Shown: in pieces, positions 3,810 through 63,984 of the stretch
Position numbering within the stretch: position 1 is the first letter of the stretch
Layout: the number at the start of each line of letters is the position of its first letter
Source of the DNA: Gammaproteobacteria bacterium
GTDB taxonomy: Bacteria; Pseudomonadota; Gammaproteobacteria; Xanthomonadales; Xanthomonadaceae
NCBI GenBank assembly: GCA_025352045.1
Contig: JANXUD010000072.1
Coordinates: 1 to 64,000 of the forward strand
Reading direction: 5' to 3'
DNA: 64,000 bases
Position numbers and translations under genes: made by a program
Notes under the pieces: model-generated
What the model was told of the DNA's origin: nothing
What the model saw: only the letters and a program-made list of their open reading frames with translations
Databases searched by the model: none

Positions 3810-5282
<1,473 letters not shown>

Positions 5283-17754: not shown

Positions 17755-18153
17755 ATGAAGAACATCCTGATGGCCAGCCTGCTATCCCTGGCGGCGCTGT
17801 TCGCAGCCCCGCAGGCCCAGGCCTATTGCAACAACTGCGGTCACGTCACCAACATCGAGGCCTACACCGGGCACCGCTCCGGCACGGGCGGCGCGGTTGC
17901 AGGCGCAGTCGTGGGCGGACTGGTCGGCAACCAGGTCGGCGGCGGCTCGGGCAAGACGCTGGCGACGGTCGCTGGTGCGGTTGGCGGCGCCTATGCCGGC
18001 AAGCACATCGCCGAGAACTCGGAGAAGACCCGCTATCGCGTCACCGTGCGCCTGGATGACGGACACTCGGAAACGGTGACCCAGTCCAGCGTGGGCAACC
18101 TGCACGTGGGCAGCGCGGTCAAGATCAAGAACGGCAAGGCCGTACACCTCTAA
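17755..18153 (+). CDS. Secreted glycine-zipper 2TM-domain protein
   Basis: 132 residues. Signal peptide 1-23 ending AQA, then CNNC (25-28). A glycine-zipper segment (42-84) has regular GxxxG spacing, as in GGAVAGAVVGGLVGNQVGGG. A C-terminal beta region follows (TRYRVTVRLDDG, VGSAVKIKNGKAV). This layout is shared with SlyB/RcsF-neighbour-type outer-membrane proteins of unknown role. ATG at 17755 begins a good signal peptide. Ends just before a long terminator. Confidence 0.85.
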   Translation: MKNILMASLLSLAALFAAPQAQAYCNNCGHVTNIEAYTGHRSGTGGAVAGAVVGGLVGNQVGGGSGKTLATVAGAVGGAYAGKHIAENSEKTRYRVTVRLDDGHSETVTQSSVGNLHVGSAVKIKNGKAVHL

Positions 18154-45480: not shown

Positions 45481-46023
45481 TCAGCTGGCGAGCCGACGGG
45501 GCATGGCCGCCAGCGAAAGGAGCAGGGCCAGCAGCCAGGCGCCGACCCAGATCGGCAGGACCTGCGCCTTGCGCGCCTCGGCCTCATGCAGCGAACGACC
45601 GGCAAGCAGGTAGCCACGGCCGGGCATCGGCACGATCACCAGGGCCTCGCGCACGCCGGGCGCCGGCTGCCAGCTGAGCCGGTGCTCGCCGCCGTCCGCC
45701 TGGGCGAACACACCGCCGGGCGGGGACGGCAGGGCGCCGTGCAGGCTGGCGCTGGACCAGAGCGGGCGACCGGCCGTGTCGTAGGCAGCCAGGAACAGCC
45801 CCTCACCCGTCTCCAGGGCGATCGGCGGCGGCATCCAGCGTTCGGGGCCCTGGCCTGCGGCGATCGCCAAGGCCGCGTCATGGGCCAGGCTGCGTTGCGG
45901 CTCGTCGGCGGCCTGGCGCAGCTGCTGGTGCCAGGCGAGCAGTCCGCCGAAGGCAAGCACGCTGGTCGCCAATGCGATCGGCAGCCAGCGGCGGACTACG
46001 GACGCGGGCGCCAGCGCGTTCAA
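45481..46023 (-). CDS. Small sensor-like membrane protein coupled to creD
   Basis: 180 residues, family not recognised. Two membrane helices (about 12-30 and 157-173) flank a ~120-residue periplasmic domain containing LFLAAYDTAGRPLWSSASLHG and GYLLAGRSLHEAEARKAQV. This is the layout of the sensor half of a histidine kinase with no kinase attached. The ATG overlaps the creD stop (ATGA, 46020-46023), so it is made with CreD. Possible roles (signal input to CreC, or envelope response) are inference. Confidence 0.75.
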   Translation of the reverse strand: MNALAPASVVRRWLPIALATSVLAFGGLLAWHQQLRQAADEPQRSLAHDAALAIAAGQGPERWMPPPIALETGEGLFLAAYDTAGRPLWSSASLHGALPSPPGGVFAQADGGEHRLSWQPAPGVREALVIVPMPGRGYLLAGRSLHEAEARKAQVLPIWVGAWLLALLLSLAAMPRRLAS

Positions 46024-47396
46024 GCTGCCGCAGCCGCAGTGGGCGCCGCGCCGGCACCGGCGGCGTACCAGTCGATCCGACGGGTCACCAGCATCGCAGC
46101 GGCAAGGATGGCGAACAGGAGCAGGGAACCGAGCACCAAGGCATTGTCTTCGGACACTAGCAGACCGTAAAGCGCGGCATACAACGCCGTCAGGATGGCG
46201 GCGAAGCCCAGGCCGCGGCCGCGGCTGCGCAGCACCGCCGACAGATAGGCGCCGAGCAGCCCGATGCAGGCGACGCCCGAGAGCAGGTAGGCGATCCAGA
46301 AGGCCATGTGCTCGGACAGGCTAAGCAGCAGCAGGAAGAAGATCGCAAGCGCCAGTCCCACCAGCGTGTACTGGATCGGATGGATCGGCAGCCGCTTGAG
46401 CACTTCGAACAGGAAGAAGCCGGCGAAGGTCAAGCCGACGAACAACAGGCCGTACTTGCTCGCGCGGTCGGCCTGCGAATAGACGTTCACCGGTTCGACC
46501 AGGCCAACCGATAGCGCTTCCAGGTCGCGCGTTGGAACCGCCTGCAAGAGCTGGGCCTGGGTGGACGAGGCCAGCGCGCTCACGTCCCAATGCGCCTGGA
46601 AGCCCGCGTCGGAAATCTGCCGGGTGCGCGGCAGGAAGCGGCCGGCGAATTGCGGATGCGGCCAGCTCGAATGCAGGTCGATGGTGTTGCTGTCGGCGGC
46701 GGGCGCCAGCGCGAACGTCTCGGTGCCCCCCAACACCAGCTGCAGCCGGGTCTGGAATCGCAGCGGCGTCCCGGCGACCAACCCCAGCCCCGTGTCGGCG
46801 TGCAGGCCGCCACCGCCGCGCTGCCCGCCTGGGCCCTGGCGCAGGTCCAGGGACCGGGCGTCGAGCTGCAGCGCCGGCGTACCGACCAGGCCGCGCACAT
46901 CGGCGATCGCGATGCTCAGCCAGGGCACGCCGATCTGGCGCTGGCCGCCGGGATCGGCGGGCACGGTGAACGCGAAGTCCGAATCCACGCGCGCCTGCAA
47001 TTCGTACACTCGCACCTCGTGCAGGCCGATCGTCCGCACGGACGGCGCCAGGTTGCCGTCGAGCCGCGAGCGCGTGGGGAAGCGCAACCACCGGCCTTCG
47101 CGCCGCTCGGTTTTCAGGACCGGCTTTCCGAAGGCATCGGTGGATGCAACCTGCAAGGTCTCGACGTAGGGGATGACCAGCACCGGACCGGCCAGGACCT
47201 GCGCTCCGGCGTGGCTGTCGGCGACCGCGGCCACCGCCTGCTGGCGATAGGCCTGCCGCTCGGCGATGGTGCCGCGGATCATCGCCAGCGGGATCATCAG
47301 CAACAACACCATCACCGCGACCATGGCGGCCTTGAGGCCGACCCGCAGCCGGGGAGGATTTGCGTTCCATCCGGCGGGAATCGGCGGTAGCGGCAT
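46020..47396 (-). CDS. creD: Inner membrane protein CreD
   Basis: 458 residues. N-terminal helix (about 20-42), a large periplasmic domain (45-310) with the family block AGPVLVIPYVE and PEGRWLRFPTRSRLDGNL-like region, then a cluster of five or six helices (about 318-445) including SKYGLLFVGLTFAGFFLFEV and LPIHPIQYTLVGLALAIFFL. CreD is the strongest CreBC-regulon member in enterics and Stenotrophomonas, with effects on envelope integrity and beta-lactam response. The Gly/Arg-rich stretch GPGGQRGGGG is a local oddity. No canonical CreB site was seen upstream. Confidence 0.92.
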   Translation of the reverse strand: MPLPPIPAGWNANPPRLRVGLKAAMVAVMVLLLMIPLAMIRGTIAERQAYRQQAVAAVADSHAGAQVLAGPVLVIPYVETLQVASTDAFGKPVLKTERREGRWLRFPTRSRLDGNLAPSVRTIGLHEVRVYELQARVDSDFAFTVPADPGGQRQIGVPWLSIAIADVRGLVGTPALQLDARSLDLRQGPGGQRGGGGLHADTGLGLVAGTPLRFQTRLQLVLGGTETFALAPAADSNTIDLHSSWPHPQFAGRFLPRTRQISDAGFQAHWDVSALASSTQAQLLQAVPTRDLEALSVGLVEPVNVYSQADRASKYGLLFVGLTFAGFFLFEVLKRLPIHPIQYTLVGLALAIFFLLLLSLSEHMAFWIAYLLSGVACIGLLGAYLSAVLRSRGRGLGFAAILTALYAALYGLLVSEDNALVLGSLLLFAILAAAMLVTRRIDWYAAGAGAAPTAAAAA

Positions 47397-47482
47397 CGGG
47401 CGTGCTCTCTTCGGGACCGCAGCCAGCTTGCCCCGGCATGGTGAGCAGAAGATGTGCCGCGAATGTGCTGTTCGTGAAGTTC

Positions 47483-47547
47483 CTGAACGGGGCCGGTTCT
47501 TTCACACGCGAACGTCGGGGCCATGTGAAAGAACCGGCCCCGTTCAG
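47483..47547. repeat. Long inverted repeat between creC and creD
   Basis: Two perfect 24-base arms (47483-47506 and 47524-47547) around a 17-base loop. The core is CGGGGCCGGTTCTTTCAC. The right arm covers the creC stop codon: its internal TGA is that stop. The left arm, extended to 29 bases (47479-47507), recurs identically at 63920-63948. As RNA it makes a very stable hairpin between creC and creD. Confidence 0.92.
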
Positions 47548-48968
47548 CGCGGCAACGTGAGCACGGCCTCGGCCCCGCCATCCGCGCGATTGCCCAGGGC
47601 GATGCTGCCGCCATGCAGCAGCGCCACTTCGCGCACCAGGGTCAGGCCGAGCCCGCTGCTGCGCGCGCCGTCCGGACGTGGCAGCGAGTAAAACCGCTCG
47701 AATACCCGCTCGCCCGCGAACGCCGGCACACCGGGACCCTGGTCCGCGACGCGCAGGACGACGGCATCGGCGTCCTCGACCAGGGTCAGGTCGATCCGCG
47801 CGCCGTCGGGCGAAAATTCCAGCGCGTTCTCGAGCAGGTTCGACAGCGCGTGCCCCAGCAGGAAACGGTCGCCCGGCACCATCGCGCGCGACGCGCCGGT
47901 GCGAGCGGTGCGCAGGCCGCGCTGCTGGAGGCGCGGTTCCAGTGCGAGCACTGTCTCGTCGAGCAGTTCGACGAGGTCGACCGGCTTGGGCTCCTCGAGC
48001 GCCTGCCGCGACTCCATCGCCGCCAGCGCCAGCATCTTGTCGATCATCGCCGCCAGGCGCGCGCCCTGCCCGTCGATATTGGCGAGGAACCGGACGCGAT
48101 CCGGCCCCTCGGGCGCATCGTGCAGGATCTCGACCGCGGCGCGGATGGCCGCCAGTGGGCTTTTCATCTCGTGCGCCAGGGTCTGCACGTAATGCTCGAC
48201 GTATTGCTTGCCGTCCAGGCGCTCGCGCATGGTCGCCAGCGCACGACCCAGCTCGCCGATCTCGTTGCGCCCGAGGTCAGGCGCCGCCACTCGCTCGCCC
48301 GCCGTCACCGCGCGGGCGTAGCGGCCCAGCGTGGACAGCGAACGCGACAGCCACCAGGTCACGCCCACGCCAATCAGGAAGCTCAGCCCCAGCAGGATCC
48401 AGCCACCCTTGAGGATGGCGCGCCGGCTGTTGTCGATGAAGGGCTGGATGCGCTGGTTGGCCTTGGCCACGGTCAGCACGCCGATGATGGCCCCGTCGGC
48501 CCCGCGCACCGGCGCGGCCACGTGCATCACCGAGCTGGTGTCGTCGGCCGGGTCGCTGAGGGTCGAGCGCGCGCCATACTTGCCGCGCAGGGTCAGGTAG
48601 ACATCGTTCCAGCGCGAATAGTCGCGGCCAAGGTCGCGATGCGTGGAGTCGTAGACGACGATGCCGCGGGCGTCGGTGACATAGATGCGGTAGTCGAAAC
48701 TGCGTTTCTGGAAATTCCAGATCTGCGCGCGCACGTCGCGCTTGACCAGAGAATCCACGCTGCGCGCGAAGTAGCCGTCGCCGATGTGGCCGCTGCGCAT
48801 GTCCGGCGACGCCAGCTCGGCCAGGGCATTGGCCGTGTCCACCAGCGTGTCCTCCATCGCCTGGCGCACGCCCGGCTTGACCTCGTTGACGAACACCCGC
48901 ATCACGAAGAAGGCCGCCAGCCCGACGATCAGGAAGTAACCCAGGAAGATCCGCGTGCCGATCCGCAT
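47544..48968 (-). CDS. creC: Sensor histidine kinase CreC
   Basis: 474 residues. Helices near 8-27 and 187-206 flank a periplasmic Cache/PAS-like domain (FDYRIYVTDARGIVVYDST). HAMP region (about 207-258), HisKA with His266 in QTLAHEMKSPLAAIRAA (HEMKSPL is characteristic of CreC), and HATPase with NLLENALEFSP, DQGPGVP and SSGLGLTLVREVA. Phosphorylates CreB. Starts 27 bases after creB. Its stop codon falls inside the long inverted repeat at 47483-47547, 147 bases before creD. Confidence 0.93.
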   Translation of the reverse strand: MRIGTRIFLGYFLIVGLAAFFVMRVFVNEVKPGVRQAMEDTLVDTANALAELASPDMRSGHIGDGYFARSVDSLVKRDVRAQIWNFQKRSFDYRIYVTDARGIVVYDSTHRDLGRDYSRWNDVYLTLRGKYGARSTLSDPADDTSSVMHVAAPVRGADGAIIGVLTVAKANQRIQPFIDNSRRAILKGGWILLGLSFLIGVGVTWWLSRSLSTLGRYARAVTAGERVAAPDLGRNEIGELGRALATMRERLDGKQYVEHYVQTLAHEMKSPLAAIRAAVEILHDAPEGPDRVRFLANIDGQGARLAAMIDKMLALAAMESRQALEEPKPVDLVELLDETVLALEPRLQQRGLRTARTGASRAMVPGDRFLLGHALSNLLENALEFSPDGARIDLTLVEDADAVVLRVADQGPGVPAFAGERVFERFYSLPRPDGARSSGLGLTLVREVALLHGGSIALGNRADGGAEAVLTLPR

Positions 48969-48995: not shown

Positions 48996-49664
48996 TCAGG
49001 TCCGCAGCGAATAACCCAGGCCGCGATGGGTCTGGATCGGGTCGGCGTCGGGGGCAATGGCGCGCAGCTTGGCGCGCAGGGTCTTGACGTGGGTGTCCAC
49101 GGTCCGGTCGACCGTATCGGGCGCGTCGCGCCAGACAGCGTCCATCAATTGCTCGCGGCTGCGGATCGCGCCGGGGCGCGACAGCAGGGCTGCCAGCAGC
49201 AGGTATTCGTACCGGGTCAGGGCCAGCCCGTAGCCGGCATAGCGGATGCGCTGGCCGGCGGCGTCGTGTTCAAAGCCCTGGGCGGCGACCGCGACGGCGG
49301 CCACGGGCGCCCGGCGTAGGCGCGCGCGTACCCGCGCCACCAGTTCGCGCGGTGAAAAGGGCTTGACCACGTAATCGTCCGCGCCCAGTTCCAGGCCCAG
49401 CACGCGGTCGATCTCGCCGGCGCGCGCGGTCAGGAAGATCACCGGGATGTCGGAAAACGCACGCAGGCGCCGGCACAGCGCGAATCCGTCCAGGTCGGGC
49501 AGGCCCACGTCCAGGATCGCCACGTCGAAGGCGTCCTCGCGCAGCCGTGCCAGCGCGGGCTCGCCGCGCAGGCAATGCTCGGCGGCCATGCCGTCGGCGC
49601 GAAGCGCGTAGAGCACGGCGTCGGCGATGCCCATCTCGTCCTCGACCACCAGGATCCGCGCCAT
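48996..49664 (-). CDS. creB: Response regulator CreB
   Basis: 222 residues, OmpR family. Receiver with Asp52 (AILDVGLPDLDG) and [17 protein letters not shown]; winged helix with SREQLMDAVWRDAPDTVDRTVDTHVKTLRAKL. The second start codon used by the family (MARILVVEDE) is at 49664 with GGTGGAGG upstream. Divergent from rlmJ, 53 bases apart. Confidence 0.93.
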   Translation of the reverse strand: MARILVVEDEMGIADAVLYALRADGMAAEHCLRGEPALARLREDAFDVAILDVGLPDLDGFALCRRLRAFSDIPVIFLTARAGEIDRVLGLELGADDYVVKPFSPRELVARVRARLRRAPVAAVAVAAQGFEHDAAGQRIRYAGYGLALTRYEYLLLAALLSRPGAIRSREQLMDAVWRDAPDTVDRTVDTHVKTLRAKLRAIAPDADPIQTHRGLGYSLRT

Positions 49665-63468: not shown

Positions 63469-63927
63469 ATGAACGCACGTGTCGTCGCCACCCTGTCCAC
63501 CACCCTGGTCCTGTTCGCGGCCGGCGCTGCCGCTGCCGCCCCGCTCGTTGCTGCCGCCGGTTCCGACCAATCGACGGCACCCCGCTCCGCCTACCTGCGC
63601 GGTTCCCAATGCCTGGATCCGGCGTTCGCGCGCGGCTGGGTCTACCTCGACGACCGCCACATCCTGGTCGACGCGGGCCGCAACCGCTACCGGATCGAGT
63701 TCAGTTCCTACTGCCGGGACATCGCCTTCACGCCGGTCATCGGCTTCCGCGGCGAGCCGGTCGGCGGCCGGGTCTGCGGCGGCCCCTTCGATTCGGTGTT
63801 GACGCGGGACATGCCCTGCCATATCCAGCGCATGGACCTGATCAGCCGCGAGGAATACAAGGCCATGGAAACGCAGCGGGCCCGCGATCGCGCCGAGCGC
63901 AAGATGAAGCGCCGCGTCAGTTCCTGA
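63469..63927 (+). CDS. Small exported Cys-containing protein, DUF6491-like
   Basis: 152 residues. Signal peptide 1-24 (Ala-rich). Mature domain with four Cys (48, 82, 103, 117) and RGSQCLDPAFARGWVYLDDRHILVDAGRNRY-type strands, then a basic helical tail (about 125-152). The overall layout recalls DUF6491 proteins of this bacterial group; the name is from memory and tentative. GGGAGA ribosome site before ATG 63469. The stop codon TGA is part of the dispersed repeat that begins at 63920. Confidence 0.75.
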   Translation: MNARVVATLSTTLVLFAAGAAAAAPLVAAAGSDQSTAPRSAYLRGSQCLDPAFARGWVYLDDRHILVDAGRNRYRIEFSSYCRDIAFTPVIGFRGEPVGGRVCGGPFDSVLTRDMPCHIQRMDLISREEYKAMETQRARDRAERKMKRRVSS

Positions 63928-63984
63928 ACGGGGCCGGTTCTTTCACACAGCGAATGGGCGCGAAAAGCGGGCCGGTTGTTTCAC
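63920..63984 (+). repeat. Second locus of the GGGGCCGGTTCTTTCAC repeat
   Basis: 63920-63948 is identical over 29 bases to 47479-47507. A degenerate second copy of the core follows 38 bases later (63969-63984, GGGCCGGTT-x-TTTCAC with one mismatch). The TGA inside the first unit (63925-63927) is the stop codon of the preceding gene. Sequence runs to the window edge, so further units may follow. Confidence 0.85.

Follow-up and report, generated by a model that had tools for sequence, protein, structure and literature searches.

Two questions are raised by the creC locus: why the stop codon of this gene lies within a perfect palindrome, and whether that palindrome is a local accident or one copy of a repeat family found at gene ends. 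We addressed both in the window, a 64,000-nt stretch of contig C114 from a 3.0-Mb draft genome designated G000 (other G numbers denote further genomes). The palindrome is very probably a REPIN-like dimer of the terminal inverted repeats (TIRs) of a transposase, presumably moved in trans, that has settled on a native stop codon and gives creC a hairpin on its stop.

Results

The palindrome comprises two 24-nt arms that are 100% complementary, located at 47483..47506 (+) and 47524..47547 (-), with a 17-nt spacer (47507..47523) between them that forms the hairpin loop. The left arm, CTGAACGGGGCCGGTTCTTTCACA, is a repeat unit in which the outer edge CTGAACG leads into the core GGGCCGGTTCTTTCAC, and the right arm is the same unit inverted, reading CTGAACGGGGCCGGTTCTTTCACA on the creC strand. 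The initial annotation had described a perfect repeat at 47479-47547; the perfection of the repeat was confirmed, while its start had been set 4 nt too far to the left. Read on the minus strand, the right arm is C-TGA-ACGGGGCCGGTTCTTTCACA. Its TGA (47546-47544, -), which occupies arm bases 2-4 inside the outer edge, is the stop codon of the creC reading frame (47544..48968, -), as had been proposed. The very stable hairpin that had been expected between creC and creD was also recovered, since RNA of the creC strand folds into a single hairpin of -53.9 kcal/mol (z = -7.55 relative to shuffled sequences). No U-tract follows the hairpin on either strand, where the stem is succeeded by GGAACTTC or CGCGGC, and a terminator scan at this position matched only an internal 5-bp stem on the + strand; the palindrome is thus not a textbook intrinsic terminator. 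Rfam searches of the palindrome returned only sub-threshold matches to generic hairpins (plastid 3' hairpins and miRNA-type models).

creC encodes a 474-aa sensor histidine kinase (NCBIfam PRK11100, 638 bits; cut-off 356). The neighboring creD (46020..47396, -) encodes a 458-aa inner-membrane protein (NCBIfam PRK11715, 474.5 bits; cut-off 275), and its ATG lies 147 nt past the creC stop. Upstream of creC is a response regulator ORF (48996..49664, -) that is creB by position.

Three exact matches and one 3-mismatch match to the core 18-mer occur in the window, as compared to 0.11 expected. Some of these belong to a second cluster, whose first unit (63923..63946, +) carries a TGA at 63925-63927 that is the stop of the gene at 63469-63927 (+), in agreement with an early report that the repeat recurs about 16 kb away at another stop codon. 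An inner unit with one mismatch in the 16-mer core follows at 63969..63984 (+), and two inverted units (contig 64030-64045 and 64068-64083, -) lie outside the window, so that the whole is a ++-- array extending past the window end to contig position 64083.

Genome-wide, the 16-nt core GGGCCGGTTCTTTCAC yielded 75 matches with two or fewer mismatches, versus 7 for a reversed control. The stretches fetched around the copies contain approximately 74 units in 40 clusters, a count in which copies at contig ends may appear twice (C22/C92). Ten of the clusters are '+-' pairs, 18 are single units, six are tandem doublets (++ or --) and six are larger nested arrays; 16 of the 40 start with a + unit and finish with a - unit. 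Arms within a pair are more similar to one another than arms of different pairs (permutation p = 0.0005), indicating that pairs behave as units, as expected if they spread as units. The unit consensus is (CC)TGAACGGGGCCGGTTCYTTCAC, or GTGAARGAACC on the reverse strand, and the unit in this genome reads GGGGCCGG; the exact element boundary is uncertain because the inner left flank varies. A TGA is present in the outer edge of 39 of 55 outer units versus 4 of 18 inner units. Within the genus, 26 other genomes contain zero to two copies of the 16-mer core each, about as many as their controls. Across 84,980 species genomes, with the genome itself left out, an exact search for a 21-mer found no match. 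These results point to a family that is probably recent and confined to one species.

Copies sit at the ends of contigs C22, C35, C47, C84, C85, C92, C99, C100, C124 and C131, and the family thus seems to interrupt the assembly; between C22 and C92 there appears to be an overlap of one copy. A second candidate element, C22:48244-49049, consists of two diverged units 788 nt apart and was rejected because no transposase lies between them. Both of its units are at gene ends, and one supplies a TGA stop.

Two Y1_Tnp genes were identified in the genome. One of these, C123:17822-18520, encodes a 233-aa protein with HVH and YIERNP motifs that passes the cut-off for Pfam PF01797 (E about 1.3e-11 to 2.6e-11), and it is flanked by inverted doublets of the repeat unit at 17769/17796 and 18562/18589. 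This arrangement around a Y1 (RAYT-like) transposase marks the repeats as a transposase-borne, REP-like family. Y1_Tnp is the only domain that Pfam found in the protein, with no C-terminal helix-turn-helix extension. The NCBIfam model for REP-associated tyrosine transposases scored 62.7 bits, below its 80-bit cut-off, and the solved TnpA_REP chain 4er8 matched weakly in sequence (E = 0.0013). The other, weaker Y1_Tnp gene (L069:2804-3580, -, on C125) was rejected as the cognate because its contig has no family units.

Homologous transposases occur in many congeners (about 40-53% identity for the longer matches), where they are flanked by inverted, often doubled, GGGGTCAG-type repeats. Those of other genera are commonly flanked likewise, mostly by GGGGTCAG- or GGGGACnG-type repeats, and 22 of 84 ends of these elements are near stop codons, as compared to 0.8% of control positions. 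One such locus, in a record titled as a Rhizobium sp. MAG (L349), is the same as the transposase locus G022:C241 of a genome belonging to this genus, and the Rhizobium label looks wrong.

Gene calls around the copies came from a simple codon model, for which 23 window ORFs served as the training set, in place of a curated annotation. The initial annotation had raised the prospect of a REP-like family that inserts at or supplies stop codons, as opposed to a few isolated copies or copies placed at random relative to genes. The family, approximately 74 units in all, shows strong enrichment at gene 3' ends: a facing stop is 3-15 nt away from 27 of 40 clusters, versus a null of 12.5% derived from random non-coding window positions plus the last 9 coding bases (p~9e-16, an approximate value, since the observed distances of 3-15 nt were taken from the core and the null distances of -9 to +12 nt from the insertion point). 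In 18 of the 40 clusters the gene stops at the unit's own TGA (null for 0-3 nt 2.4%, p = 5e-19), and among unit TGAs that overlap a gene end 18 of 20 are in frame, where one third would be expected (p = 2e-7). Both convergent genes end at or near a unit in 6 of 16 two-ended clusters (p~1e-9). About a quarter of clusters are away from any called stop. Two diverged units found later are likewise at gene ends, and intragenic copies are nearly absent although most of the sequence is coding.

Genes ending at repeats were compared with orthologues from six congeners. The same end residue as in at least one orthologue was found for proteins that we take, from reading their sequences, to be ETF-ubiquinone oxidoreductase (...GPNYQNL*), TldD (...TVGGTAS* versus ...TVGGTRA*) and Kbl (...NVIS* versus ...GVIS*), and also for the proteins at loci L065, L036, L048 and L052. 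A few repeat-ended proteins are 2-7 residues shorter or 1-2 residues longer than their orthologues. Truncating insertions that create new stops were rejected, as the orthologues end no more than a few residues away, if not at the identical position; native stops have been kept. CreC itself ends within one residue of some congener orthologues. Behind the creC stop of congener G025 is TGACTGACTTCATCCCCGGCACACATTCG, which resembles GGAACTTCACGAACAGCACATTCG behind the repeat in G000 and is consistent with insertion at the creC stop, although this empty site is approximate, the nearest orthologues sharing only about 56-69% identity in their best segment.

The same placement rule is followed by a sister family in congener G020, which has 102 exact copies of the repeat of its own transposase, GGGGTCAGGTTCACTT, versus none of the control; G002 has 30 copies and G021 has 28. 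The G020 copies occur in inverted pairs (loci L217-L254). We examined 95 outer ends: a facing stop is no more than 20 nt away in 55, and in 27 of these the distance is 4-6 nt, at which spacing the edge AAGAAA(C/G) either adjoins the stop or completes it (TGA|AGAAAC, TA|AGAAAC). Where a comparison with repeat-free orthologues from nearer relatives (mostly ~80-97% identical) was possible, the stop codon was the same in about half. At locus L239R, G018 has the flank CTCTGAGATAATGG immediately after the stop, and G020 has it after the repeat.

Discussion

The family shares traits with two described kinds of repeat. It resembles the GTAG REPs and REPINs with their RAYTs of E. coli, Pseudomonas and Stenotrophomonas in having many dispersed, mostly intergenic units behind genes, often in inverted pairs, together with a cognate Y1 transposase. 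It differs from GTAG REPs in that its stop is a TGA at the outer edge and a single unit can form no more than a weak 4-bp stem, and the GT[AG]G tetranucleotide at the hairpin foot is absent from the unit consensus. Lacking a GTAG head, the family fits the TIR/TIRYT kind. TIRYT/TIRtron elements (Di Nocera et al. 2013, PMC3733652) and TnpA_Y1 subclass 2.1 (Quentin et al. 2018, PMC6006769) are described as Y1 transposases flanked by inverted repeats without GTAG; likewise, the C123 protein has HUH and catalytic-tyrosine features and flanking inverted repeats unrelated to GTAG. TIR families are reported in the former paper as moderately abundant dispersed copies in dimers and clusters, which is also the pattern here. 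The GGGGWSAS motif, borne by some TIRs and not all, is missed by GGGGCCGG and fitted by the congener GGGGTCAG, and the C123 element differs from TIR elements in that its flanks are tandem doublets. We do not file the C123 transposase as subclass 2.1 because of its lack of a C-terminal helix-turn-helix.

REP-supplied stops and TIR families are both known, the former as the TAG of GTAG REPs (PMC3733652), and placement at stop codons is unusually sharp in the present family. In the excerpted text of PMC3733652 and PMC6006769, such placement is described for GTAG/CGTC REPs and not for TIR families; a TIR-type family with TGA-bearing ends on native stops, supported by orthologues and seen again in another family of the genus, was not found described in these sources.

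The dispersed repeat very probably represents the terminal inverted repeats of the genome's own Y1/HUH transposase, in a TIRYT/RAYT-type element, and the palindrome an inverted pair of that repeat. The repeat was probably spread by this single-strand transposase, judging by the repeats flanking its gene, and the C123 protein presumably mobilizes copies in trans. Copies have settled at native stops, where the outer edge (CC)TGAACGGGG puts a TGA on or just behind the gene's own stop, so that the upstream protein is essentially unchanged by insertion.

How the copies came to be at stops can be explained by both selection and targeting. Given a little less than even weight here is the hypothesis that insertion occurs anywhere and that purifying selection in a gene-dense genome leaves only copies at gene ends, where a stop-forming edge (TGA in G000; AAGAAAC in G020, which completes TAA or TGA after T or TG) renders them harmless. 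The near absence of intragenic copies accords with this hypothesis, as does a similar 3'-end bias in published classical REPs (PMC3733652), and some proteins are shortened or lengthened by 1-7 residues, as random hits near gene ends would give. However, non-coding space plus the last 9 coding bases predicts far fewer clusters near stops than were observed, and the exact stop has been kept in about half of comparable cases, more than random positions within a few codons would allow.

That same excess over available non-coding space is what targeting would produce. Tentatively, the transposase, or its access to single-stranded DNA, may favor the surroundings of stop codons, C/TGA for example. 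Two families show stops at the same codon followed immediately by the repeat (TGA|ACGGGG in G000; TGA|AGAAAC and TA|AGAAAC in G020), and TnpA_REP cleaves at CT with a guide tetranucleotide choosing the site (PMC8266576), which makes a short TGA-containing site mechanistically possible. Against this, the stops do not share one fixed sequence, many being TAA or TAG, and TGA is found everywhere, such that a few bases alone cannot confine insertion to stop codons. A broader scheme, which we offer as speculative and rather unlikely, is that this Y1 subfamily targets stops through their context or through local single-stranded DNA, that the repeat ends evolved to restore the stop, and that insertion consequently spares proteins.

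It is improbable that the repeat is a bidirectional transcription terminator multiplied for its usefulness. Such a role would suit a hairpin of about -54 kcal/mol at gene 3' ends, often between convergent genes, but the missing U-tracts, a terminator scan confined to the internal 5-bp stem, the frequency of single units without an inverted partner (18 of 40 clusters) and the association of copies with a transposase all argue otherwise. Neisseria uptake-sequence terminators are also inverted pairs at gene 3' ends, but DNA-uptake sequences are almost certainly not the explanation here, given that the copies number ~74 in 3 Mb, not hundreds to thousands, are species-specific, are rarely inside genes and flank a transposase.

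In RNA, the creC palindrome gives a 24-26-bp hairpin that sits right on the creC stop, ahead of creD. This stem could slow termination at creC as a partial barrier, or could protect the 3' end of the creC mRNA as a stabilizer and lower read-through into creD; the initial annotation had suggested that it may separate creBC from creD expression. In E. coli, REPs lying no more than 15 nt from a stop are reported to stall ribosomes and lower expression (ref 17 as cited in PMC12306157). There, too, the hairpin is directly behind the stop, whereas at creC the base of the stem contains the stop codon itself, and an effect on expression would be predicted by analogy.

The stop-codon placement is readable to the base and bears on how REP-like repeats choose their sites. 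If sites are targeted, the family would exemplify a safe-site strategy and might offer a means of tagging genes at their 3' ends; if selection is responsible, such families would gauge constraint on protein ends and 3' regions. Either way, many genes terminate within a strong hairpin, a point relevant to termination and mRNA decay. Several young, species-specific families, each matched by a transposase, are available in the genus, as are near relatives whose sites are empty.

A GTAG-type REP-like motif (GCGGCTTCAGCCGCGA) adjoins a unit of the family at L056, near 5060-5090; the window lacks this motif. In congeners, more distant Y1 transposases (L092, L102-L104) are flanked by GTAGGAGCG- and GTGGGAGGGACTTCAGTCCC-type REPs, indicating that GTAG-type and TIR-type systems coexist in the genus.
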